A stretch of DNA of 64,000 nt, taken from NCBI GenBank assembly GCA_945860285.1, contig CAMAQB010000006.1, forward strand, positions 1 to 64,000. The letters run 5' to 3'. The notes under the pieces were generated by a model. That model was not told the DNA's origin, did no database searches, and saw nothing but the letters and a program-made list of their open reading frames with translations. A program made the translations under genes and the position numbers. This stretch comes from Akkermansia muciniphila (GTDB lineage Bacteria; Verrucomicrobiota; Verrucomicrobiia; Verrucomicrobiales; Akkermansiaceae). Position 1 is the first letter of the stretch. Every line of letters starts with the position of its first letter. Below are positions 38,390 to 51,522 of the stretch, one piece after another.

Positions 38390-41356
38390 ATGACAAAACA
38401 ACCAACAAAAAAAATCGCGCTCCTTTTTCTTGCGCTTCTGCCCGCCGCCTCCGCTCAATACCAGGGTTGGCAGCACGCAGGCCCGCTTTCCATTCTCACC
38501 ACACCCGATGGTGCGAACCTGCCGGCCACGGCTTCCGAGGAAAACTTCCCGCTGTTGGTCCGATTGAAAAAAGAAACGTTCGACTTCAGCCAGGCAAAGC
38601 CCCTCGGCGAGGACCTTCGATTCTCCGCCGCGGGCAAACCACTCGCCTATCAGATCGAACAATGGGACGCGGCGCTGGGGACTGCCAGCATCTGGGTGCG
38701 CATCCCGCTCATCAAGGGCAATGCCCAGCAGGAAATCAACCTGCACTGGGGCAAGGCGGAAGCCGCATCGGAGTCAAACGGCAAAGCGGTGTTCAATGAG
38801 TCCAACGGATTTGTCACGGTCATGCACCTGGACGATCCGAAGGAACCCCGGGATGAAACCGGCACGCTGGCTCCGATCAATCTCGGTGCGACATCGTGCG
38901 ACGGCATGATCGGCAAGGCGCTGAATTTCGTCTATGGTCGGCCGGGAGTGGTCGGCGGCGAGAACATCACCAACTACCCGAGCGGCAACAGTCCCTCGTC
39001 CACCGAAGTGTGGTTCAAGGACAACAAACTTCCCGGCCCGTGGGGCACCCGGTTCGCCTGTTGGGGCAATGAAGGCAAGGGCAGCAAATTGCTGATCGGC
39101 GTGCTCAGTCCGCTGCATATCAGCTGCGGGGTGGAATGTCCGGGGCCGGTTTCCCTGAACCAATGGTATCACGTGGTGCACACCTACCAGACCGATGGCA
39201 CACAGAAAGCCTATGTCAATGGCCAGCTCGTGGCTTCGAAGAATGCGCCGATGGATGTCAAAAGTCCCTGCCGCATGTATGTAGCGAACTGGTATCGCAA
39301 CTGGGAAACCGATGCCGATGTCGATGAAGTGCGGATCTCCAAGGTCACCCGGTCCGCCGATTGGATCCGCTTGTGTTATGAAAACCAAAACCCGCAGCAA
39401 ACACTTGTGGGCATTCTTCCGCAGGCAGGAAAGGAGTTTTCCGTTTCCAGTTCCACGGTCCAAATCGATGAAGGAAAAAGCACGGAAGTAACCGCCATGG
39501 CCGGTGGTGCGAGGAAGCTCTATTGGATCGTCAAACGCGGCGGCAGTGAAACCGTGGTCGCGGTCGATCAGGTTCGCTATGCCATCAATGCGGAACGTGT
39601 CGCGGCGGATGCCTCCTATGTTTTGCAGTTCAAGGCGGTCTATGCGGACGGAGTCAAAACCAAGGAGATCGCCGTGTCCGTGAAGAACTCGATTCCCGAT
39701 CCGGTATTCACACTCAAGGCGCCCGCGAAATGGAATGGCCGCAATACCATCGAGGTGGTTCCGGAAATCAGCAATCTCAGCGAGATGAAGGCAAGTGGCG
39801 CTGGCGAAATAAATTACACCTGGTCGGTCACCGGTGGCGCGATCATCAAGGAAACCGCCCCTGACCGATTGATTCTCAAACGCTCGCAATTCAGCGGCCC
39901 GCTCTCCGTGAAAGCGGTCATCGACAATGGCGGTGCGCCCCAGGAAGCAAAAGCGATGCTTCAAGTGACGGAACCCAAGAGCGACCCGTGGGTCGAGAGA
40001 ACACCGGAAAAAGACGAGAAACCTGAGGACGGTCAATTCTTCGCCCGGGATGACAACAACACAGGCACACTTTTTTACAACGGAACCCTCGAGCAGATTG
40101 CCGATTCGGTATTCCTGAAACTGTATGCCGACGACAAGCTCATCAAGACCGAATCGCAGCAGCCCGCCGCCGACAAAAGCTACGCTTTCACCCTCAAACT
40201 CAAGCCGGGGCTGATCAAATACAAGGTCGAGCTCGGAACGAAATCCGGCGGCACCGAAACGCTGGTGCAAACGATCAACAATCTGGTTTGCGGCGACGCG
40301 TTTCTCATCGACGGACAATCCAACGCCCTGGCCACAGATACCGGCGAGAAGTCGCCTGCGGAAACCAACGAATGGATTCGCAGCTACGGCAAACCCGAGG
40401 GCGAAGCGAAAGGCCCGCGGAAGAATTTGTGGTGCAATCCGGTATGGAAGGCCGAGAAAGGAGATAAAGCGGAACTCGGTTACTGGGGCATGGAACTCGC
40501 CAAACGGCTGGTGTCGAGTCAGAAGATGCCGATCTTCATCATCAATGGCGCGGTCGGTGGAAGCCGCATCGACCAACACCAGCGCAACGAGACCAAACCC
40601 ACCGACCTGACGACGATCTACGGGAGGATCCTGTGGCGCGTCCAACAAGCCCGGCTGACCCACGGCATCCGCGCGGTGCTGTGGCACCAGGGGGAAAACA
40701 ACCAGGGCATGGCGGGGCCCACCGGCGATTTCGACTGGAAATCCTATCAACAGTTTTTCATGGAAATGTCCGCCGCATGGAAACAGGATTTCCCCAACCT
40801 CCGGAACTACTACCTTTTCCAAATCTGGCCGGGAGCCTGCTCGATGGGCGATGGCAACATGATCCGCGAGATGCAACGGACCATGCCGAATCTGTATTCG
40901 AACATGATCGTGATGCCTACATTGGGCATCAAGCCGGCGGGCACCTGCCATTATCCCTTGGCGGGCTGGGCGGAATTCGCGACCTTGATGCAGCCGTTGA
41001 TCGAACGGGATGTGTATGGCAAGATGTTTGCCGACCCGATCACGGCACCGAATCTCAAGAAAGCGACTTATGCCAACGCGGCCAAGGACACGATCACCCT
41101 GGAGTTCGACCAACCGGTGGTCTGGCAGGATGCGCTGGCCGACCAGTTCACCCTCGACAGCGAAAGGGGCAAAGTGGCTTCGGGAGCCGCGAGCGGCAAT
41201 ATGATCACGCTCAAACTGAAAAGCCCCTCCGAAGCATCGAAGATCACCTACCCAGGACCCAACTGGAACCAAAACGACTTGATCTTCGGCAACACCGGCA
41301 TTACCGCGCTGACGTTTTGCGATGTGCCGATTGAAGCCACGAAACCGGCACCCTGA
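38390..41356 (+). CDS. secreted multidomain sialate O-acetylesterase-type protein
   Basis: The 988-residue protein has a signal peptide (MTKQPTKKIALLFLALLPAASAQ), then a DUF2341-like domain (NFPLLVRLKKETFDFSQAK ... INLHWGKA). A LamG-like jelly roll follows (STEVWFKDNKLPG ... LNQWYHVVHTYQTDGTQKAYVNGQLV ... DEVRISKVTRS, ~190-330), then Ig-like segments (~350-530). The C-terminal SGNH/SASA esterase domain has nucleophile IDGQSNA (~644), RAVLWHQGENNQG and catalytic His in GTCHYPLAGWAEF. It probably removes acetyl esters from extracellular polysaccharide or sialic-type sugars. It starts 166 bp after the PKS stop. Confidence 0.85.
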   Translation: MTKQPTKKIALLFLALLPAASAQYQGWQHAGPLSILTTPDGANLPATASEENFPLLVRLKKETFDFSQAKPLGEDLRFSAAGKPLAYQIEQWDAALGTASIWVRIPLIKGNAQQEINLHWGKAEAASESNGKAVFNESNGFVTVMHLDDPKEPRDETGTLAPINLGATSCDGMIGKALNFVYGRPGVVGGENITNYPSGNSPSSTEVWFKDNKLPGPWGTRFACWGNEGKGSKLLIGVLSPLHISCGVECPGPVSLNQWYHVVHTYQTDGTQKAYVNGQLVASKNAPMDVKSPCRMYVANWYRNWETDADVDEVRISKVTRSADWIRLCYENQNPQQTLVGILPQAGKEFSVSSSTVQIDEGKSTEVTAMAGGARKLYWIVKRGGSETVVAVDQVRYAINAERVAADASYVLQFKAVYADGVKTKEIAVSVKNSIPDPVFTLKAPAKWNGRNTIEVVPEISNLSEMKASGAGEINYTWSVTGGAIIKETAPDRLILKRSQFSGPLSVKAVIDNGGAPQEAKAMLQVTEPKSDPWVERTPEKDEKPEDGQFFARDDNNTGTLFYNGTLEQIADSVFLKLYADDKLIKTESQQPAADKSYAFTLKLKPGLIKYKVELGTKSGGTETLVQTINNLVCGDAFLIDGQSNALATDTGEKSPAETNEWIRSYGKPEGEAKGPRKNLWCNPVWKAEKGDKAELGYWGMELAKRLVSSQKMPIFIINGAVGGSRIDQHQRNETKPTDLTTIYGRILWRVQQARLTHGIRAVLWHQGENNQGMAGPTGDFDWKSYQQFFMEMSAAWKQDFPNLRNYYLFQIWPGACSMGDGNMIREMQRTMPNLYSNMIVMPTLGIKPAGTCHYPLAGWAEFATLMQPLIERDVYGKMFADPITAPNLKKATYANAAKDTITLEFDQPVVWQDALADQFTLDSERGKVASGAASGNMITLKLKSPSEASKITYPGPNWNQNDLIFGNTGITALTFCDVPIEATKPAP

Positions 41357-41937: not shown

Positions 41938-42113
41938 CAAATTCGTGGCAGTCCCCGCCCACGGATTTTGCGGATGAGCTGAATTCCCCTTCCCTGTTTC
42001 CACTTTCCCCCTAGAATGCCGCCATGCGCAACAGCTTTTACAACGCATGGGACACCGCGCGCTGGTCGGGGAAACCCGACGACGGCGATTACCGCTCGGC
42101 ATTCCAGATCGAC
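41938..42113 (+). repeat. 176-bp direct repeat, left copy (dgt 5' region)
   Basis: Matches 50144-50319 with about five substitutions, roughly 97 percent by eye. Differences include CGTGG/CGAGG, GAGCTGA/GAGCCGG, GTCGG/GTCCG and AAACCC/AAATCC. It begins at CAAATTCG and ends at CAGATCGAC, within codon 30 of the truncated dgt copy. Confidence 0.95.
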
Positions 42114-42176
42114 TGCCTGGTCTATGACCTCTATGGACTAACAGAAGTGGAAATCGCGCTGGTCGAAGGCGCTTGA
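42024..42176 (+). pseudogene. in-frame chimera of dgt start and type IIG restriction enzyme tail (50 codons)
   Basis: ATG at 42024 encodes 30 residues identical, except Pro for Ser at residue 18, to the start of the dGTPase at 50230 (MRNSFYNAWDTARW ... SAFQID). Without a frame break it then continues as CLVYDLYGLTEVEIALVEGA and a stop, which is the C-terminus of the restriction enzyme at 43908-46826 (LVYDLYGLTEEEITLVEGA). The junction falls in CCAGATCGAC, present in both parent genes. Too short for the ORF track. Probably not functional, but it records the recombination. Confidence 0.9.
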
Positions 42177-42194
42177 TCTAATCTCTCGCACCTC

Positions 42195-42706: not shown

Positions 42707-43078
42707 ATGTTTAATGAAACCGTCAAATCCTTACGCCTTCAAAAACGACTCACACTCAGGGACTTCTGTTCCCAAGCCGGGCTGGATCCAAGCAACTGGA
42801 GCAAGGTCGAACGGGGCGTGAACCCGCCCCCGGGAGATGTCGGTCTGCTTGAACGTTTGGCCAACTTTTTCGGTCTAACTGGGGCCGACAAACTGGCATT
42901 CATCGACGAAGCAGCCATCCAGAGGCGGGAGATCCCTGCGGATGTAGCGGAGAACGCAATCTTGCAAAAGGCGTTGCCTGCCTTTTTTCGCGCGGCAAGA
43001 GGGCACGAACTCACAGAGCAGGAGCTTCTCAGCTTCGCGGAAGACATCCGTAAGCTCCACACCCCTGACGCGCAATAA
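42707..43078 (+). CDS. XRE-family helix-turn-helix regulator
   Basis: ATG at 42707 (the ORF track starts earlier, upstream of the promoter) gives 123 residues. The N-terminal HTH reads VKSLRLQKRLTLRDFCSQAGLDPSNWSKVERGVNPPPGD, close to the XRE/Cro signature. The C-terminal part (AILQKALPAFFRAARGHELTEQELLSFAEDIRK) is helical. It probably represses its own promoter through the palindrome 16 bp upstream, and controls the ImmA gene that begins 8 bp later and perhaps the restriction gene. It resembles antitoxin or control proteins in XRE-ImmA pairs. Confidence 0.85.
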   Translation: MFNETVKSLRLQKRLTLRDFCSQAGLDPSNWSKVERGVNPPPGDVGLLERLANFFGLTGADKLAFIDEAAIQRREIPADVAENAILQKALPAFFRAARGHELTEQELLSFAEDIRKLHTPDAQ

Positions 43079-43086
43079 GGCTGACC

Positions 43087-43689
43087 ATGGAACACATCTG
43101 GAGCAAAATCGAGGAACTGAGGGCTGAATATGACCTGTTGAAGGAGGATCGTACGCCCATCGATGTGTTCACCTTTCTTGAGGTGGATTTGGGACTGGAT
43201 CCCATTCCCTTCGATGATCTTGTGTCAAAATACCGGGTGGAAGCCGCGATCAAGGCGGATTTCAGCGGCATTTACATGGATGCCGAGCAATACGTCCTGA
43301 TGGAGAAGGCGCCGGAGTGGAAGCTCAATCGTCTCCGTTTCACAGTGGCTCATGAACTGGCCCACTATTTCCTCCACCAGAATCTCCCGCAGACCTCCCA
43401 CTTCGCCAGTCTCCCAGATTTCGCCAAGTGGACGGCGAACTATCATGGCCGCAAATACACAGCGGAACAGGAAGCCAATGAGTTTGCTGGGCGTCTACTG
43501 GTACCGGAGACTCGACTTGGTCAATTATTCGACGATTTTGCCAGTGAAGCGAACCGGTTGATGCCCAATTTCATGAGCAGCGGGCAACTTCGCGACAAAT
43601 TCGCGGAGAGGGTCGCACCTCGCTTCGGAGTCAATGCACAAGTCATTGCCATCCGTTTGGATCGGGATGGTATTTGGCCTGCGTCATGA
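43087..43689 (+). CDS. ImmA/IrrE-family metallo-endopeptidase
   Basis: The 200-residue protein has the zinc-protease motif His89-Glu90-Leu-Ala-His93 in FTVAHELAHYFLH, with a downstream acidic helix (YTAEQEANEFAGRLLVPET) supplying the third ligand. ImmA/IrrE proteases cleave XRE-type repressors in response to DNA damage or other signals, which fits the XRE gene 8 bp upstream. The pair may act as a toxin-antitoxin unit or as a switch controlling the restriction gene downstream. It ends about 220 bp before that gene. Confidence 0.88.
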   Translation: MEHIWSKIEELRAEYDLLKEDRTPIDVFTFLEVDLGLDPIPFDDLVSKYRVEAAIKADFSGIYMDAEQYVLMEKAPEWKLNRLRFTVAHELAHYFLHQNLPQTSHFASLPDFAKWTANYHGRKYTAEQEANEFAGRLLVPETRLGQLFDDFASEANRLMPNFMSSGQLRDKFAERVAPRFGVNAQVIAIRLDRDGIWPAS

Positions 43690-43707
43690 CTGTGAACACC
43701 CTCACAG

Positions 43708-43738
43708 ATCAAAATCACACCTGTCTCACCGCTTCGTA
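43708..43738 (+). repeat. 31-bp direct repeat, left copy (trmL-tail-like)
   Basis: CAAAATC, A or C, then CACCTGTCTCACCGCTTCG is shared with 49976-50006 with one mismatch over 31 bp. On the minus strand it reads YEAVRQV-stop, equivalent to the end of the TrmL fragment at the right copy. The two copies bracket the restriction/HEPN/TIGR04255 block. A TATAAT lies just downstream at 43754-43759 and could serve the restriction gene. Confidence 0.8.
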
Positions 43739-43907
43739 TGGCAAGTTCTATTGTATAATTCAGATGGCAAACATACCTGCTGAGCTATATTTGGCTTGCG
43801 ATGCAATAAGAATCGATGCATGGTTTTTTCCCGTTAGAGTTTCGATTCGCCTATTCAAAATAGCTATTAAATCGCTGTTACTTTTCACCGCACCACTTCT
43901 CGCTCTG

Positions 43908-46826
43908 ATGCCTGCACCTGACCCAGTCCAAAAACTCTGCGAAACCTTCGCCGAACACCGCGAACACTTCCGTTCGGGCAATTATAATGAGTTCCAGTTG
44001 CGCAAACAATTCCTTGACCCGCTGTTTGATGCCCTCGGATGGGACATGGCCAATTCTCAAGGTATCGCCCCGCAGTATCGCGATGTCATTCACGAGGATG
44101 CCATCAAGATTGGCACGCATGTCAAGGCACCGGACTACGCTTTCACGATTCATGGACAAAGGAAGTTTTTCCTCGAAGCGAAAAAGCCTTCGGTGAATAT
44201 TAAGGCCGATATTGCTCCCGCTTACCAACTCCGTCGCTACGCGTGGTCAGCGAAACTTCCTCTATCAATTCTCTCGGATTTCGAAGAATTCGCCATTTAC
44301 GACACACGCATCAAACCAGCCCTGGGCGATCCCCCATCGAAGGCGCGGATCTTTTATTGCACCTTCGATCAATACGCGGAAAAGTGGGATGAGATCGCCT
44401 CGATCTTCGCGCGCGATTCCATCCTTAAAGGTTCATTCGATAAATTCGCCGACTCTGCGAAAAAGAAAAAAGGCACCGCCGAAGTCGATACGGCTTTTCT
44501 GGAGGAAATCGAGCGCTGGCGCGATCTGCTCGCTCGCAATTTCGCACTGCGCAACCCTTCTCTCACGGTGCGTGATCTCAATTTTGCTGTGCAGAAAACC
44601 ATCGATCGTCTTGTTTTCCTGCGTATCTGCGAGGATCGAGGCACGGAGGACTACGGACGCCTGCGCACCATCGCCAGTGGCACACAGACTTATCCACGCT
44701 TGTTAGAACTTTTTCGCGCAGCGGATGCCCGCTACAACTCTGGTCTATTCCATTTCTCCAAAGAAAAGGACCAAGCAGAGCAACCAGATACGCTCACCCC
44801 GAATCTCGCTCTCGATGACAAGACCCTCAAGGACATCATCGCCCACCTTTATTATCCCGACAGCCCTTACGAGTTCTCCGTCCTACCCGCCGATATCCTC
44901 GGCTCAGTTTACGAACGATTTCTCGGCAAGACCATTCGCCTCACAGATGGACACCAAGCGAAGATCGAGGAAAAACCAGAAGTCCGCAAAGCGGGCGGCG
45001 TCTATTATACTCCCTCCTACATCGTGGATTACATCGTCGAGAACACCCTCGGCAAGCTCCTCACACCGGAGACGGAGAAACCCATATCCCTTCCGGAAGC
45101 CGCGAAGCTCAAAGTGGTCGATCCCGCCTGTGGTTCCGGTTCTTTCCTCATCGTCGCCTATCAGTTCTTGCTCGACTGGCATCGCGACCGCTACGCCGAT
45201 AACCCGGAAAGATGGAGCAAGGGCAAAACCGCCACGCTGTATCAAGCCAAGGGCGACGAGTGGCGACTCACCACTGCCGAGAAAAAGCGCATCCTCCTCA
45301 ACAACATCCACGGCGTGGACATCGACGCCGCCGCCGTGGAAGTCACCAAACTCTCCCTGCTGCTGAAAGTCCTCGAAGGAGAAACTGGCGAGATCGCCCA
45401 GCGCGACTTCCTCAAGGAACGCGAGCGCATCTTGCCCGACCTTGCCAGCAACATCAAATGCGGTAACTCGCTTATCGGCCCGGATTTCTATGACCAACCA
45501 GAAATGGATCTGTTAGACGACGAGACACGCTACCGCGTCAATGTTTTCGACTGGAAAACTGGCTTCCCTGAGGTGTTCAAGCAGGGTGGTTTTGACTGCG
45601 TGATTGGAAATCCGCCGTATGTGATTCTCTCCAAGGAATTCCTTACGGTTCAAGAGATCAACTATCTAAATAAATATGAGGTAGCCCAGTATAAAACAGA
45701 CCTTTTCCACTTATTTATTCAGCAAGGCGCAACCCGAATAAGAAAGGGTGGAAAACTTGGATTCATCGTTCCGAGTCCATGGCTCACAACTCAGTTCACT
45801 TCAAAACTACGTGAGTTTCTTCTCAAGCGCATGCAGCTTGATGAACTCGTATTGTTCAATCATCTGGTGTTCGCTGAAGCAAACGTCTTCACTATGTTGC
45901 TTTTTGTCACAAATGAGATCCCTAACAAGGAATTGATGACATCGGTTCGTCTTGCCAAAGACGTTCACTCCGCATCTGGAATTACGGAAACGTCTTCTGT
46001 TGCGCTCCCTCAACACACGTGGCTGCACAGCGAAAATCAAGTCATCGAAGTTCGTCAACACGAACCAAATGGGCGCCTAGCATCTAAGATCATTAACGCT
46101 TTCCCTCCCCTCACAGAATTGGCAATCGCATCATTAGGTTGCCAAGCCTATAATTCCAGCAAGCATTCTAAAGACCAAATTAAGAACCGCGTCTTTCACT
46201 CAATGGAAAAACTGAGCGAAGAATACCTACCCGAATTGGCGGGAAGTGACGTGGATCGCTACCAGTTTGAGCGCAAGAGGGGTCAATGGATCAAGTATGG
46301 CTCATGGCTTCATGACTATAGGCCAATGGAAATCCTTACAGGACCCCGAGTTTTGATACGGGAGATCCCAGGGAAACCACCAAGGGCAATTTTAGCCTGT
46401 TATGTCGAGGAAACTTACTGCCATTACAAAACGATCTTGAATGTAAATCCGAAGAAAGGAGGAACCATTAGCATGAAATTCATGACTGGCCTCCTAAACT
46501 CATCTCTGCTTTCATTCGTATTCCCATACTGCTCGAACAAGATTGTCGCACAGGCGTTTCCCCGCCTTTCGGTCGGTGATCTAAAACGCCTTCCCATCCG
46601 TCCCATCGACTTCACCAACTCTGCTGATGTCGAGAAACATGACCGCATGGTTTTCCTCGTGGAAAGAATGCTCTCCCTCGTTCCAAAACGTCGAACCGAA
46701 TCCAACCCACAGGCCGCAGCACAACTTGAGGCCCAGATCGCCGCCACCGACCGCCAGATCGACCGCCTCGTCTATGACCTCTACGGCCTAACCGAAGAGG
46801 AAATCACGCTGGTCGAAGGCGCTTGA
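43908..46826 (+). CDS. Eco57I-like type IIG restriction-modification enzyme
   Basis: ATG at 43908 gives 972 residues; the track's extra 78 N-terminal residues are translated leader. The N-terminal nuclease has a PD-ExK site: Pro75-Asp76 (KAPDYAFTI) and Glu90-x-Lys92 (FFLEAKKPS). The central N6-adenine methylase has motif I Asp405-PACGSGS and catalytic NPPY at 568 (VIGNPPYVIL). The C-terminal ~350 residues, AT-richer, are the target-recognition part and end in the DLYGLTEEE tail. One polypeptide would both methylate and cut DNA. It lies downstream of XRE-ImmA and upstream of the HEPN-like gene. Confidence 0.9.
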   Translation: MPAPDPVQKLCETFAEHREHFRSGNYNEFQLRKQFLDPLFDALGWDMANSQGIAPQYRDVIHEDAIKIGTHVKAPDYAFTIHGQRKFFLEAKKPSVNIKADIAPAYQLRRYAWSAKLPLSILSDFEEFAIYDTRIKPALGDPPSKARIFYCTFDQYAEKWDEIASIFARDSILKGSFDKFADSAKKKKGTAEVDTAFLEEIERWRDLLARNFALRNPSLTVRDLNFAVQKTIDRLVFLRICEDRGTEDYGRLRTIASGTQTYPRLLELFRAADARYNSGLFHFSKEKDQAEQPDTLTPNLALDDKTLKDIIAHLYYPDSPYEFSVLPADILGSVYERFLGKTIRLTDGHQAKIEEKPEVRKAGGVYYTPSYIVDYIVENTLGKLLTPETEKPISLPEAAKLKVVDPACGSGSFLIVAYQFLLDWHRDRYADNPERWSKGKTATLYQAKGDEWRLTTAEKKRILLNNIHGVDIDAAAVEVTKLSLLLKVLEGETGEIAQRDFLKERERILPDLASNIKCGNSLIGPDFYDQPEMDLLDDETRYRVNVFDWKTGFPEVFKQGGFDCVIGNPPYVILSKEFLTVQEINYLNKYEVAQYKTDLFHLFIQQGATRIRKGGKLGFIVPSPWLTTQFTSKLREFLLKRMQLDELVLFNHLVFAEANVFTMLLFVTNEIPNKELMTSVRLAKDVHSASGITETSSVALPQHTWLHSENQVIEVRQHEPNGRLASKIINAFPPLTELAIASLGCQAYNSSKHSKDQIKNRVFHSMEKLSEEYLPELAGSDVDRYQFERKRGQWIKYGSWLHDYRPMEILTGPRVLIREIPGKPPRAILACYVEETYCHYKTILNVNPKKGGTISMKFMTGLLNSSLLSFVFPYCSNKIVAQAFPRLSVGDLKRLPIRPIDFTNSADVEKHDRMVFLVERMLSLVPKRRTESNPQAAAQLEAQIAATDRQIDRLVYDLYGLTEEEITLVEGA

Positions 46827-46855: not shown

Positions 46856-47872
46856 ATGTCCCTTGAATCAACTCATGAGATCAGCACCGTTCAGGATGGT
46901 TCAAAAAAGCCTCTTTTCGGGATCGTCAAGTTCTCGCCATCGCTGTGTTGCGCGGCTAATGCTCTTGGCTGTAGTGTTGACGTTTCTGTAGGTGGAATCA
47001 AAGGCACCTTGACCCTGCCATCGCCTCCCGACTGGGGAATAAAAGAGGATGATCCGCTTCATATGCCCCTTTTGGGTCCAGGTCAGGCGCGAACTTGGAA
47101 GCAGGGGGGAAATCTAATGTTCTGGGGAAAGCCTCATTCATATCCAGATGGGGAGTCCGCAGTCGAGCAGGCTCTATTTCAATTTCAATTAGATCCTGAG
47201 TATTTCGAGAGTGACGCAGAGCGCATCTACAACGGCTTCGGCCCATGGCTTGATCTCTTTGAGAAGTATGTGATCTTACTGAGCACGCAAGGCAGGTGCT
47301 CCCGAGTAACAGTGAAGCACCCCAGAGCAAATCAAATTCATCTCCTTCACCACGAAGAATCCAAACTGGGCTTTAATCACATCACATATCCTCAAAGTGT
47401 TGCCGTAAATATCGCTACTGGAGGCGACCTTCAACGGGAACAGTTTGAAGAAATATCTCGGATGAGTTCGGAACTTCTTCCTCCGCGTCTGGAATACATT
47501 TTGCTACTGGAAGCATATATGGCCCGTAAAGATAAGGATTACCGAAAATCTATTATTGAAGCTGCCAATGCTCTGGAAGTTTCTCTCACGAATCGAATTT
47601 TAGAAGAATTCAAATCTCAGGGGGTTGTTTATGGAGAGAAGATTTTGGAAAAATACCGCATGCTCGGCGGAAGATTTGAGTTGGCGAAAACTGTGGGTAT
47701 CCCACTACCAGATAAGGACTACAAAAAGCTAGTCATGGAACCTAGAAACAATGTGGTTCACAAGGCGGGATTTCCCGATGAAAATCTCGCTCGTCAAGTT
47801 ATTTCAGAGGTGGAGGAAGTTCTACAATTATTGTCGCCGATGATCAATGAAACCACCCCATTGAAAGTCTGA
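46856..47872 (+). CDS. uncharacterised protein with HEPN-like C-terminus
   Basis: The 338-residue product has an N-terminal beta-rich part (GIVKFSPSLCCAANALGCSVDVSVGGIKGTLTLPSPPDW) and a helical C-terminus. The latter contains KSIIEAANALEVSLTNRILEE and EPRNNVVHKAGFPDENLARQVISEVEEVLQLL. Arg297-x4-His302 fits the Rx4-6H ribonuclease motif of HEPN domains, common in abortive-infection and toxin proteins. The gene is clearly AT-richer than the flanking chromosome. It starts 29 bp after the restriction gene, suggesting co-transcription. Function is inferred from the motif only. Confidence 0.62.
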   Translation: MSLESTHEISTVQDGSKKPLFGIVKFSPSLCCAANALGCSVDVSVGGIKGTLTLPSPPDWGIKEDDPLHMPLLGPGQARTWKQGGNLMFWGKPHSYPDGESAVEQALFQFQLDPEYFESDAERIYNGFGPWLDLFEKYVILLSTQGRCSRVTVKHPRANQIHLLHHEESKLGFNHITYPQSVAVNIATGGDLQREQFEEISRMSSELLPPRLEYILLLEAYMARKDKDYRKSIIEAANALEVSLTNRILEEFKSQGVVYGEKILEKYRMLGGRFELAKTVGIPLPDKDYKKLVMEPRNNVVHKAGFPDENLARQVISEVEEVLQLLSPMINETTPLKV

Positions 47873-47948
47873 TAAAGAAATCCTTTCTCAATATTTTGGA
47901 CGCAATGTTCTCAGAACATAAATTCATACCCATCGCCCCATCATTCAA

Positions 47949-48716
47949 ATGAGCTCAGAAAACCAGCCTATTCCAAGCGCGCCCATCATCGAAGCGATCG
48001 TAGATATCGATTGCGATCTTCCGCCTAGTCTGGATCTGCAAAGCCTGCGCGAGGCAGCCGGAGATGCGTTGCGTGATCGCTATCCAAAATTTCGCCAGCA
48101 GTTAATTCAGGAACACGTTTTCACGAAAGAAGGTGATGCACCGCCGGAGTTCCGCATCAATCAAGGCCAGGGTGCCATGCAGTTTCTGACCCAAGACGAG
48201 AAGCAACTCATTCAATTCCGCCCAAACGGCTTTTCCTTCAACCGACTGGCCCCCTATGGCAGTCTGGACGACTATCTGACGGAGATCGAGTCAAGCTGGA
48301 GAACCTTTCTCCAGCTTGCGCAGCCTGTCATGGTTCGCAAGATTGGCATCCGGATGATCAACCGGATTTTGCTGCCGATGGATGCCGGAAGATTGGATTT
48401 TGGGGATTTCCTGAGGGTGACACCCCGCCTGCCTGAAACGGGATCGCCTCTGGGCTTCCTTGGATTCCTTGACCAGCAAATGGCCTTGGACAGCGACACG
48501 GGAAACCGCGCCAACATTATCAAAACGACCGAATTGCCGCAAGGTGACCAACTCCCGCTGATTCTGGACATTGACGTTTTCCATTCCTCTGAAATCCCTC
48601 CCGCCGACTGGTCGCTGATCCGAGATCGTTTGGATTCAATAAGAAGCTTGAAAAACCGGATTTTTCGGAATACATTAACTCCGCAATGCCTGAACCTCTT
48701 ATCTCTGCAGGTCTGA
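47949..48716 (+). CDS. TIGR04255-family protein
   Basis: The 255-residue protein begins PIPSAPIIEAIVDIDCDLPP, has FRPNGFSFNRLAPYGSLDDYLTEIESSWRTFLQLAQPVMVRKIGIRMINRI in the middle and ends ...IRDRLDSIRSLKNRIFRNTLTPQCLNLLSL. These are hallmarks of the sporadically distributed TIGR04255 family, which has no known biochemical function. Its last 31 bp overlap the start of the next gene. I recall TIGR04255 genes followed by two small genes like those here, so this looks like a recurring three-gene module. Confidence 0.78.
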   Translation: MSSENQPIPSAPIIEAIVDIDCDLPPSLDLQSLREAAGDALRDRYPKFRQQLIQEHVFTKEGDAPPEFRINQGQGAMQFLTQDEKQLIQFRPNGFSFNRLAPYGSLDDYLTEIESSWRTFLQLAQPVMVRKIGIRMINRILLPMDAGRLDFGDFLRVTPRLPETGSPLGFLGFLDQQMALDSDTGNRANIIKTTELPQGDQLPLILDIDVFHSSEIPPADWSLIRDRLDSIRSLKNRIFRNTLTPQCLNLLSLQV

Positions 48717-49228
48717 TGCTGGCTGGTTACACTGCTGCGGTAGCCCTGTCCCGTCCACGTTCCGCTGTTTCTGCTGAGGCGGAGTCGGTGAGATTGAACG
48801 CGTCAATTGTGGTCGAGCAGGTTCACCGCTCGGTCGCGCTCTTCGGCCCTAAGGCCACTCTCATTTCTTCCCTTTCCGTCCTCGGTAAGGAATGCCGTGA
48901 GCCGAATTGGGATGGCTACGTTGCTGAGCCGGTTAGTCTGCGTGCCCTGCGTCGCGCCGAAGATCTGATCGCATCGTTTCCGGATGACATTCCTCTGCCG
49001 GAGTGCTCCATTGAACCGGATGGCTGTGTATCGCTGGACTGGATGCCCGCTCCCTACCGCACCTTGACGGTGAGCGTGGGCGAATCCGACAGGTTGCCCT
49101 ATGCATGGGTGGATGGCACAGACAGGGGACATGCCGTAGCCAGACTCGTGGACGGCCAACTTCCACCCCGTATTCTTGCCGAAATCCGCCGATTCACCAG
49201 CCATGATCCTTCCGTCCGGGCTGCCTGA
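48686..49228 (+). CDS. second gene of the TIGR04255 module, hypothetical
   Basis: The 180-residue product contains ECREPNWDGYVAEPVSLRALRRAEDLIASFPDDIPLPECSIEPDGCVSLDW, then LPYAWVDGTDRGHAVARLVDGQLPPRI, strongly patterned sequence typical of a conserved family. No catalytic motif or membrane span is clear apart from a mildly hydrophobic N-terminus (LISAGLMLAGYTAAVAL). It overlaps the previous gene by 31 bp and the next by 26 bp, so the three are translated as a coupled set. Function unknown. Confidence 0.7.
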   Translation: MPEPLISAGLMLAGYTAAVALSRPRSAVSAEAESVRLNASIVVEQVHRSVALFGPKATLISSLSVLGKECREPNWDGYVAEPVSLRALRRAEDLIASFPDDIPLPECSIEPDGCVSLDWMPAPYRTLTVSVGESDRLPYAWVDGTDRGHAVARLVDGQLPPRILAEIRRFTSHDPSVRAA

Positions 49229-49616
49229 ACGTGTCGCCGATGACGAGGATTTGGCAAGGTTTCTCACCTCGTCCGGACACTACAACGCGTCAGCGGCGAG
49301 ACCCGCAGCTTTCATGCCCAACCCCAAAAATGGAGAGACCTCCGTCTTCCGGCATGGAGCGGAGCCGCTTGAGCAACTGAAGTCCGTCGCGCAAGCAGAA
49401 GTTGGCGCAGACCGCCACATCCATGGAGCCTCCATCGTCAAAGTCAGCGTAATCAGGGAGGCGCAGCTGGAAGTCCGCGCCAAAGAACCACCGCCGCGTC
49501 ATGCTGACATCATCGGCTGGCCATGGTCCAAAGACGATCCTGACTTCGGGAAGGCACAGCAGAAAGAACTGGCGACGCTGATCGCCCAAAAAGCGGGTTC
49601 GCCACTGCGGTTTTAA
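49203..49616 (+). CDS. third gene of the TIGR04255 module, hypothetical
   Basis: From ATG at 49203, 137 residues: PERVADDEDLARFLTSSGHYNASAARPAAFMPNPKNGETSVFRHGAEPLEQL, then IHGASIVKVSVIREAQLEVRAKEPPPRHADIIGWP, and KAQQKELATLIAQKAG. The pattern is that of a small conserved soluble protein without a named function. It overlaps the second gene by 26 bp and ends the island's coding part. ATG at 49176 is possible but would extend the overlap. Confidence 0.68.
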   Translation: MILPSGLPERVADDEDLARFLTSSGHYNASAARPAAFMPNPKNGETSVFRHGAEPLEQLKSVAQAEVGADRHIHGASIVKVSVIREAQLEVRAKEPPPRHADIIGWPWSKDDPDFGKAQQKELATLIAQKAGSPLRF

Positions 49617-49976
49617 ACTTAATTGGCCCCAGGAGCCGAGGTTCCGACCCATTCGGGCTGCCGCTCGTGAGAGTGGCCTCTACATCTCCCGCGCTCGCCG
49701 AGAGGAATTTGCCAAAGCAGCACTCTGACGTCAATTAGGAGTTTTGCCGATGTCGCAAATTCTCCTGATGCCCCCAGTACGAGCAACCCGCGCTGGACCG
49801 TCAGATTGCCGTCACCAAAGGTTTAACGTACGCTATTCGCGTGGAAGTTTTTCACTATGCTAACACGCATCAAAATTTGTGAAACCGTAATACAATCAAG
49901 AAAGTTTAAAAACGAAAAAATTGACACTGGGAGATGGTTTTTTTTGACATTTTTTCTAACAGAATAGCAGAATTAA
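49617..49976. other. intergenic region with a hairpin, no gene recognised
   Basis: About 360 bp after the TIGR04255 module. AGGAGTTTTGC (49737-49747) and GCAAATTCTCCT (49755-49766) form an imperfect hairpin. The right half is AT-rich with T-runs (TGGTTTTTTTTGACATTTTTT, about 49935-49955), which could contain a terminator or a promoter. No conserved coding signal was seen. Confidence 0.5.
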
Positions 49977-50006
49977 TCAAAATCCCACCTGTCTCACCGC
50001 TTCGTA
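49976..50006 (+). repeat. 31-bp direct repeat, right copy
   Basis: Matches 43708-43738 with one mismatch (C for A at the ninth base). Here it is the 3' end of the trmL fragment on the minus strand; past the repeat the trmL frame continues. Confidence 0.8.
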
Positions 50007-50143: not shown

Positions 50144-50319
50144 CAAATTCGAGGCAGTCCCCGCCCACGGATTTTGCGGATGAGCCGGATTCCCCTTCCC
50201 TGTTTCCACTTTCCCCCTAGAATGCCGCCATGCGCAACAGCTTTTACAACGCATGGGACACCGCGCGCTGGTCCGGGAAATCCGACGACGGCGATTACCG
50301 CTCGGCATTCCAGATCGAC
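50144..50319 (+). repeat. 176-bp direct repeat, right copy (native dgt 5' region)
   Basis: Runs from CAAATTCG, directly next to the trmL fragment, through the presumed promoter and ribosome-binding region of dgt to its 30th codon. It is the counterpart of 41938-42113 and continues into intact dgt, so it is likely the native copy. Confidence 0.95.
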
Positions 50320-51522
50320 CGCGACCGCGTATTGCACACGCCGACATTCCGTCGGCTGCAAAACAAAACACAGGTGTTCTGGAGCGGTGAATACGATTTC
50401 TATCGCACCCGGCTGACCCATTCGCTCGAGGTCGCACAGATCGGTCGTTCCATTTGTCACTGGCTGCTTTCCCAAGCAGACGGACCGCTCGCGCCGGATC
50501 ATTTCATCGACCCCGACCTCGTCGAGGCCTCCTGTCTGTCGCACGACCTCGGTCACCCTCCTTTTGGTCATGCCGGCGAACGCAGTCTGAACCACCTGAT
50601 GCAGGAGCACGGTGGATTCGAAGGCAACGCCCAGACCCTGCGCATTCTAACGGAACGAATTTTTTCCTCCCGACGCAGCGGCATGGACCCGAGTCGTGCG
50701 TTTGTTGATGGCATTCTGAAATACAAATCGCTGTGGACCGAGCTGAAATCCACCACCGGAAAAATCCCGCACAACCATTTCCTCTACGACGACCAGCAGT
50801 CGATCCTCGATTGGGTGATCGGCGGCAATGATTTCCCGCTCGAACTCCCCGCGGGCAGGGCGCGCGATTCCTTCAAGTCGATCGAATGCCAGATCATGGA
50901 CTGGGCCGACGACACTGCCTATTCGCTCAATGACATCTCCGACAGCGTGCGCGCCGGATTCCTTGGTTCCGACAAAATCATCCCGTGGGCGGAGCAAAAC
51001 AACATCCCCTGTGGCGAGGGCACCCCGCTCGGCGACCTGCTCCGCGCCATCCAAAAACGCCGCGTCGATCCCTTTGTCGGCAAGCGCATCGGCCTCTACA
51101 TCCGCGCCACCCGGCTCACCGAGCAGGTCAATTTCCTTTCCCATCAAAGCCAACGCTACCGCTACCAGTTGCTCGTCGATCCCGCCGTGAGCGCGGAGTC
51201 GGAGCTGTTCAAAAAACTCGCCTTCGACCTCGTTTTTCTCTCCCCGCAACTCAAGCAGCTCGAACACAAGGGCAACCACATGTTGCGCGCGCTCTGGGAA
51301 CTGTTGGAGAAACGCTACATCGCGCCCGGCCACATCGACGGCCAGCATTTCCAAATCCTCTCCGCCGACAGCGCCAGCGAGATCGAGCAGGCCGGGGACC
51401 CCGCTGTGAAAGCCCGGCTGATCTGCGACTTCCTCGCCGGCATGACCGACGGTTACGCCAGCCGCATGTACAAAAGGCTTTTCCTCCCCGATTTCGGTTC
51501 GATCAACGACTTGATCGGCTGA
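50230..51522 (+). CDS. dgt: dGTPase-family deoxynucleoside triphosphate triphosphohydrolase
   Basis: The 430-residue enzyme hydrolyses dGTP (or dNTPs) to nucleoside and triphosphate. HD-domain metal ligands are visible: His in RTRLTHSLEVAQIGR, His105-Asp106 in LSHDLGHPPFGHAGE, and a later Asp in MDWADDTAYSLNDI. The N-terminal FYNAWDTARWSGKSDDGDYRSAFQIDRDRVLHTPTFRRLQNKTQVF matches dGTPase-like proteins. Dgt enzymes can restrict phages by depleting dNTPs, so its position at the island edge may be meaningful. The gene is complete despite the duplication of its 5' end. Confidence 0.92.
   Translation: MRNSFYNAWDTARWSGKSDDGDYRSAFQIDRDRVLHTPTFRRLQNKTQVFWSGEYDFYRTRLTHSLEVAQIGRSICHWLLSQADGPLAPDHFIDPDLVEASCLSHDLGHPPFGHAGERSLNHLMQEHGGFEGNAQTLRILTERIFSSRRSGMDPSRAFVDGILKYKSLWTELKSTTGKIPHNHFLYDDQQSILDWVIGGNDFPLELPAGRARDSFKSIECQIMDWADDTAYSLNDISDSVRAGFLGSDKIIPWAEQNNIPCGEGTPLGDLLRAIQKRRVDPFVGKRIGLYIRATRLTEQVNFLSHQSQRYRYQLLVDPAVSAESELFKKLAFDLVFLSPQLKQLEHKGNHMLRALWELLEKRYIAPGHIDGQHFQILSADSASEIEQAGDPAVKARLICDFLAGMTDGYASRMYKRLFLPDFGSINDLIG

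Follow-up and report, generated by a model that had tools for sequence, protein, structure and literature searches.

Which function may three overlapping genes fulfil that lie beside a restriction gene of Akkermansia muciniphila and are headed by a protein of the TIGR04255 family? The genes (hereafter the trio) are located on contig CAMAQB010000006.1 (assembly GCA_945860285.1), positions 1 to 64,000 of which, read on the forward strand, constitute the analyzed window of 64,000 nucleotides:

47949-48716, + strand: gene 1, TIGR04255 protein (255 aa)
48686-49228, + strand: gene 2 (180 aa)
49203-49616, + strand: gene 3 (137 aa, ATG start)

The trio may represent a three-component toxin-antitoxin or abortive-infection module, composed of a sensor or regulator, an antitoxin and an ADP-ribosyltransferase (ART)-like toxin, that backs up restriction; we give this reading about an even chance. 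It is based on the conservation, order, overlap, co-inheritance, restriction linkage and sporadic distribution of the three genes.

Conservation and co-inheritance of the trio

The initial annotation, made from the DNA letters and a list of open reading frames (ORFs), had named gene 1 as TIGR04255 and left genes 2 and 3 without a family. Both statements are borne out: gene 1 matches sporadTIGR04255 (NCBIfam) with 119.6 bits (cut-off 30, E 2e-34) over positions 2-251 of the 252-position profile, i.e., above the curated cut-off, and scans of Pfam, NCBIfam, PADLOC and PHROGs yielded no family for genes 2 and 3. No PADLOC-DB 2.0 model matched any of the three genes at E 0.1, and a sequence-based search for solved relatives provided no convincing one for any of them. 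The ORF coordinates also reproduce the claimed overlaps of 31 bp (gene 1/gene 2) and 26 bp (gene 2/gene 3), the start of gene 3 being taken as the ATG at 49203 (TTG 49176 in the mechanical ORF list). Similar overlaps recur elsewhere, i.e., 13-34 bp between genes 1 and 2 at most strict trio loci and 23-26 bp between genes 2 and 3 at seven loci including the window.

The nearest relative (L028; located on the same contig as G306:C94 and therefore counted once) shares 71, 73 and 76 % amino acid identity with genes 1, 2 and 3, respectively. The corresponding nonsynonymous divergence (dN) amounts to 0.195, 0.181 and 0.136 at a synonymous divergence (dS) of 1.3-2.4, the dN/dS ratios being rough since dS is near saturation. 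Because dN is 0.14-0.20 versus dS of 1.3-2.4, all three genes are considered to be maintained as proteins, and the substitution pattern indicates that purifying selection acts on each of them. Chance or spurious ORFs are ruled out by dN/dS together with the recurrence of the trio elsewhere.

The ordered trio occurs at 20 compared loci, including those that gene 1 as query retrieved in metagenome-assembled genomes (MAGs) of Gemmatimonadota, Kiritimatiellales and Spirochaetes. Pairwise distances over these loci correlate among genes 1, 2 and 3 (r 0.88-0.91, Mantel p 0.0001), which points to joint descent of the trio; the correlation alone does not separate horizontal from vertical passage. Among 289 genomes sampled from the phylum, gene 1 is present in 12 according to the family model, and single-sequence searches revealed gene 2 in 11 and gene 3 in 7 genomes, with gene 3 adjoining gene 1 in six of the latter. 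Profile searches of 289 genomes of the order detected TIGR04255 in 24, gene 2 in 21 and gene 3 in 14 genomes. In all 14, gene 3 is adjoined by gene 2 directly upstream (two of these genomes lack gene 1), and in 12 of them by TIGR04255. Gene 2 also occurs without gene 3 in some genomes. TIGR04255 was found in none of 14 control genomes and in none of six genus-mates in the order sample. Thus, the ordered trio across phyla, its adjacency and the distance correlation support co-occurrence of genes 2 and 3 with TIGR04255. The claim that the trio forms one strict unit stands only in part: order and overlap recur, but TIGR04255 also heads other pairs, and genes 2 and 3 exist together without TIGR04255.

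Since the Gemmatimonadota copy of gene 1 is closer to the window (47 % identity) than that of the same-family genome G252 (23 %), horizontal passage of the trio is suggested. A search of plasmids retrieved three distant TIGR04255 matches and none for gene 2. Decayed copies are found in a Latescibacterota MAG (L031, 5953-6682), in which the first part of gene 1 continues as the final part of gene 3, and at L049.

Two further loci were observed alongside. A second TIGR04255 locus of the same genome (L057, 14582-15806, on G000:C86), near a contig end, also holds a relative of gene 2 along with an ORF resembling a transposase. In a genome of the same genus (G508; L188, 757-3184), a 363-aa protein with a weakly gene 2-like C-terminus is followed by a 152-aa gene 3-like protein (NPAHCHVDF) and then by a convergent gene resembling a relative of the 338-aa ORF that precedes the trio in the window.

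Predicted folds and related modules

The AlphaFold2 model of gene 3 (predicted local distance difference test, pLDDT, 95.4) was compared with solved structures by Foldseek. The four best folds are all KptA (probability 0.77-0.92, template modelling score, TM, 0.42, E 0.1-0.3), with other ART-fold proteins (1s21, 2hw2) lower in the list, and by our reading the order of strands and helices in the model matches the catalytic lobe of KptA. Catalytic triads of the ART superfamily are R-S-E, H-Y-E/D or H-H-h, and that of the R-S-E class sits on strands 1, 2 and 5. The same strands of the gene 3 model carry R19, S47 and H100, which are kept in 23 (plus one H), 24 and 25 of 25 homologues, respectively; the third residue of this candidate triad is hence H rather than E. 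An ART-like fold of gene 3 is considered more probable than not, and gene 3 is proposed to be a small ART-like toxin with R19-S47-H100 as candidate site. Membership in KptA itself was also considered and is ruled out at the sequence level by a profile probability of 0.2 % and the lack of a Pfam hit (PF01885).

For gene 1 (AlphaFold2 model, pLDDT 91.6), TATA-binding proteins (TBP) lead the Foldseek list (E 8e-4, probability 1.00), at a TM of only 0.30-0.43. The model displays a repeated beta-alpha-beta4-alpha plan with a partly reduced second repeat, from which a duplicated TBP-like fold is predicted; a function as sensor or regulator is proposed. A perfect 15-bp palindrome (ATGTTCTcAGAACAT, 47905-47919; about 1 % by shuffling) is located ~30 bp upstream of gene 1, but is absent upstream of gene 1 at other loci and therefore does not represent a conserved operator.

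Gene 2 carries the C-terminal domain pattern 'NWDGYxA...EPDGxIxLDW...' and is proposed, by analogy, to be the antitoxin of gene 3, an antitoxin preceding its toxin being the usual gene order. In G336, where gene 1 is absent, gene 2 (L181) possesses an N-terminal stretch, SARDLLHQVQALPAEEQRLFMEELRD, which may resemble addiction-module antitoxins.

TIGR04255 proteins head several further three-gene modules. In these, TIGR04255 is followed by different pairs. At L051, a 111-aa gene precedes a PIN protein (PF01850, E 2.8e-11); at L050, a gene of 167 aa precedes a HEPN-like protein (PF05168, E 5e-4, slightly below cut-off); at L059, located on a Vibrio plasmid, an unnamed gene precedes a zeta-type protein (PF06414, E 3.1e-12); at L066 and L073, a small gene precedes a protein of ~200 aa that matches phrog_4575 (third gene of L066, 2500-3117, E 2.9e-41); and at L075, a helix-turn-helix (HTH) protein is paired with a ~260-aa protein, with L077 being similar. 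Since pairs end in PIN, HEPN and zeta, the last gene is repeatedly toxin-like, and the middle gene, as judged from gene order, occupies the position of an antitoxin. The unnamed third genes of L066 (2500-3117) and L075 (2951-3730) share a motif of the type VLSNTCDI / LTQTCDC. One may speculate, with some doubt, that TIGR04255 represents the TBP-fold sensor of a broad three-gene defence class, in which a constant sensor would be combined with interchangeable antitoxin-toxin pairs (ART-like R-S-H, PIN, HEPN, zeta and two unnamed), many of them residing in restriction operons as suicide back-up.

Restriction genes and the surrounding island

Restriction families are frequent around the trio. Pfam assignments for 94 ORFs flanking 18 trio loci comprise ResIII (6), N6_Mtase (4), Methylase_S (4), N6_N4_Mtase (3), SWI2_SNF2 (3) and Eco57I, GmrSD and Fic (2 each); among the 25 Pfam families listed for 94 ORFs of control stretches, taken from genomes also carrying trio or TIGR04255 loci, none is a restriction family. 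A restriction gene lies within 5 kb at 10 of the 18 trio loci versus none of 18 control stretches (one-sided Fisher 1.7e-4), the two sides being not fully symmetrical, since restriction genes were identified from Pfam assignments at the trios and by tblastn with the same proteins in the controls. The suspected enrichment near defence genes is supported at these loci. Several trios even share one operon with restriction genes: between hsdS and hsdM (L099), directly after hsdR-hsdM/S (L092), between a Mod-type methylase and a UvrD-type gene (L032, L042), or followed by hsdR (L096). At L102, a diverged trio is found ahead of a DUF1156 gene of anti-phage association (NF042963, 1308 bits).

In the window, the trio is surrounded by the following features:

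41938-42116, + strand: left copy of a 179-nt direct repeat (dgt upstream region plus ~30 codons), 97 % identical to the right copy
42707-43078, + strand: HTH (Xre-like) protein (PF13560, E 3.5e-9), same island
43087-43689, + strand: M78/IrrE-like peptidase (PF06114, E 6e-12), same island
43674-46826, + strand: type IIG restriction enzyme-methyltransferase, upstream of the trio (PADLOC REase_MTase_IIG, E 6e-195; Eco57I, HSDR_N, TaqI_C)
43708-43738, + strand: left copy of a 31-nt direct repeat (97 %)
46856-47872, + strand: 338-aa ORF between the IIG gene and the trio (no families, GC 46 %)
49976-50006, + strand: right copy of the 31-nt direct repeat
50144-50322, + strand: right copy of the 179-nt direct repeat, at the native dgt

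The trio was rightly placed inside a restriction island, because its upstream neighbour at 43674-46826 is the type IIG restriction-methyltransferase. The 179-nt repeat copies, 8206 bp apart, bound the island, and the left one joins, via the shared CCAGATCGAC, a 75-nt stretch (42104-42178) that duplicates the tail of the IIG gene (91 %). The 31-nt repeat occurs nowhere else in the genome; its two copies bracket the trio together with the 338-aa ORF and the IIG gene. GC is low in the IIG gene (50 %) and the 338-aa ORF (46 %) and at host level in the trio (56 %). The island is thus mosaic, with a possibly separate history of the trio. The 338-aa ORF itself is ruled out as a member of the unit by its absence from other trio loci and its differing GC.

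A dgt gene was found in nine congeners; in the eight whose dgt surroundings were examined, no island gene lies beside dgt and no second dgt start is present. Three observations support the claim that the trio moves as a cassette: the congeners searched lack the island, the dgt 5' region is duplicated around it, and the distribution of the trio does not track its hosts. The adjoining dGTPase (50230-51522) scores 376 bits with NF041026 (anti-phage dGTPase), below the cut-off of 400, and is probably a core gene, since each of the 10 searched genomes of the genus carries it. Farther upstream, a 988-aa protein (38390-41356) belongs to a large paralogous family, with 10 matches in the genome, the long ones at 48-64 % identity.

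Proposed role, alternatives and known systems

A toxin-antitoxin function is favoured since the ordered trio spans phyla with correlated divergence, gene 2 consistently precedes gene 3 in antitoxin-toxin order, TIGR04255 heads pairs ending in PIN, zeta and HEPN, and the gene 3 model resembles KptA with the candidate site kept. Back-up of restriction is favoured by the excess of restriction genes over controls and by the operon placements. From this we infer the roles of antitoxin, sensor and trigger. The gene 2 antitoxin would be formed just before gene 3 via coupled translation, and gene 1, as constant third component, would sense a trigger or control the gene 2/gene 3 pair. Attack on the neighbouring restriction enzyme is a possible trigger, upon which gene 2 would be released or lost and gene 3 would stop growth; gene 3 would use NAD+ in modifying or degrading a molecule essential to the host. 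The trio would travel with restriction-modification genes as a second line of defence.

Several points weigh against this. No restriction gene was found within 5 kb at 8 of the 18 trio loci, and neither a phage record nor a confirmed viral contig was retrieved with gene 1. The structural similarity of gene 3 to KptA is not significant by E-value (0.1, at probability 0.91 and TM 0.42), profile comparison with a KptA indicated no relation, comparison with a viral library added nothing named for this fold, and an H stands where ARTs usually have their third catalytic residue, which makes catalysis uncertain. The match of gene 1 to TBP has a low TM (0.3-0.4), and the antitoxin role of gene 2 is suggested by gene order and analogy.

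Alternatively, the trio could be an accessory of restriction-modification proper that regulates or aids the enzyme (DNA loading, self-DNA protection, dosage), with gene 3 not being a toxin. Trios embedded in type I and type III-like operons or adjoining IIG, ISP and DUF1156 genes would fit, as would DNA binding by the predicted TBP-like fold of gene 1; however, about half of the trio loci lack a restriction gene nearby, the partner restriction types are unrelated to each other, and in other TIGR04255 modules the last gene is of the PIN, HEPN or zeta type, which renders this explanation unlikely. A plain addiction module, stabilising the island without a defence role of its own, would agree with the direct repeats bounding an island absent in congeners, the antitoxin-toxin-like order and the decayed copies, but a role beyond maintenance is suggested by the dedicated third gene, which is retained alongside different pairs, and by the operons shared with restriction genes, so that this explanation is likewise regarded as improbable. 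An ordinary enzyme or housekeeping complex, residing in the island by chance, might be considered since no trio gene has a known function, but is very improbable in view of the linkage to defence genes and of the sparse occurrence of TIGR04255 (12/289 in the phylum, 24/289 in the order, 0/14 controls, no listed congener).

The preferred toxin-antitoxin or abortive-infection module would, by analogy, belong to a general kind already known as three-component systems. The literature search retrieved no paper naming TIGR04255, and that on tripartite systems and TBP-like folds no description of the trio. The family, named sporadic by NCBI with no function attached to its model, is here shown to head several different three-gene modules, one of them travelling with restriction genes across phyla. 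Together with the ART-like appearance of the modelled last gene of this restriction-linked module, this gives an unexplained family a defence hypothesis that can be tested directly and that names the residues concerned.

Omega-epsilon-zeta and toxin-antitoxin-chaperone systems likewise combine a third protein with an antitoxin-toxin-like pair, and one TIGR04255 module also ends in a zeta-type protein; for gene 1, with its predicted TBP-like fold, no relation to omega or SecB is apparent. DarTG and other ART toxin-antitoxin systems (reviewed in PMC9967889) share the proposed logic of an ART-fold toxin with the antidote encoded beside it, but differ in that gene 3 combines a candidate R-S-H site with no detected sequence relation to named ART families, and in that gene 2 falls into no recognised hydrolase (macrodomain) family. 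The RNA 2'-phosphotransferase KptA/Tpt1 provides the closest solved folds to the gene 3 model, in which there is neither the N-terminal lobe of KptA nor its H-containing motifs. In PrrC-EcoprrI, a linked type I restriction enzyme guards the anticodon nuclease PrrC, which is reported to be silenced by this enzyme and freed by a phage anti-restriction factor (PMC2610378). The suspected effector of the trio also resides inside restriction operons, but the trio consists of other proteins with another fold and has no anticodon nuclease. By this analogy, the trio would respond to restriction failure, and if gene 1 indeed senses such failure, it would represent a new kind of guard on restriction enzymes.
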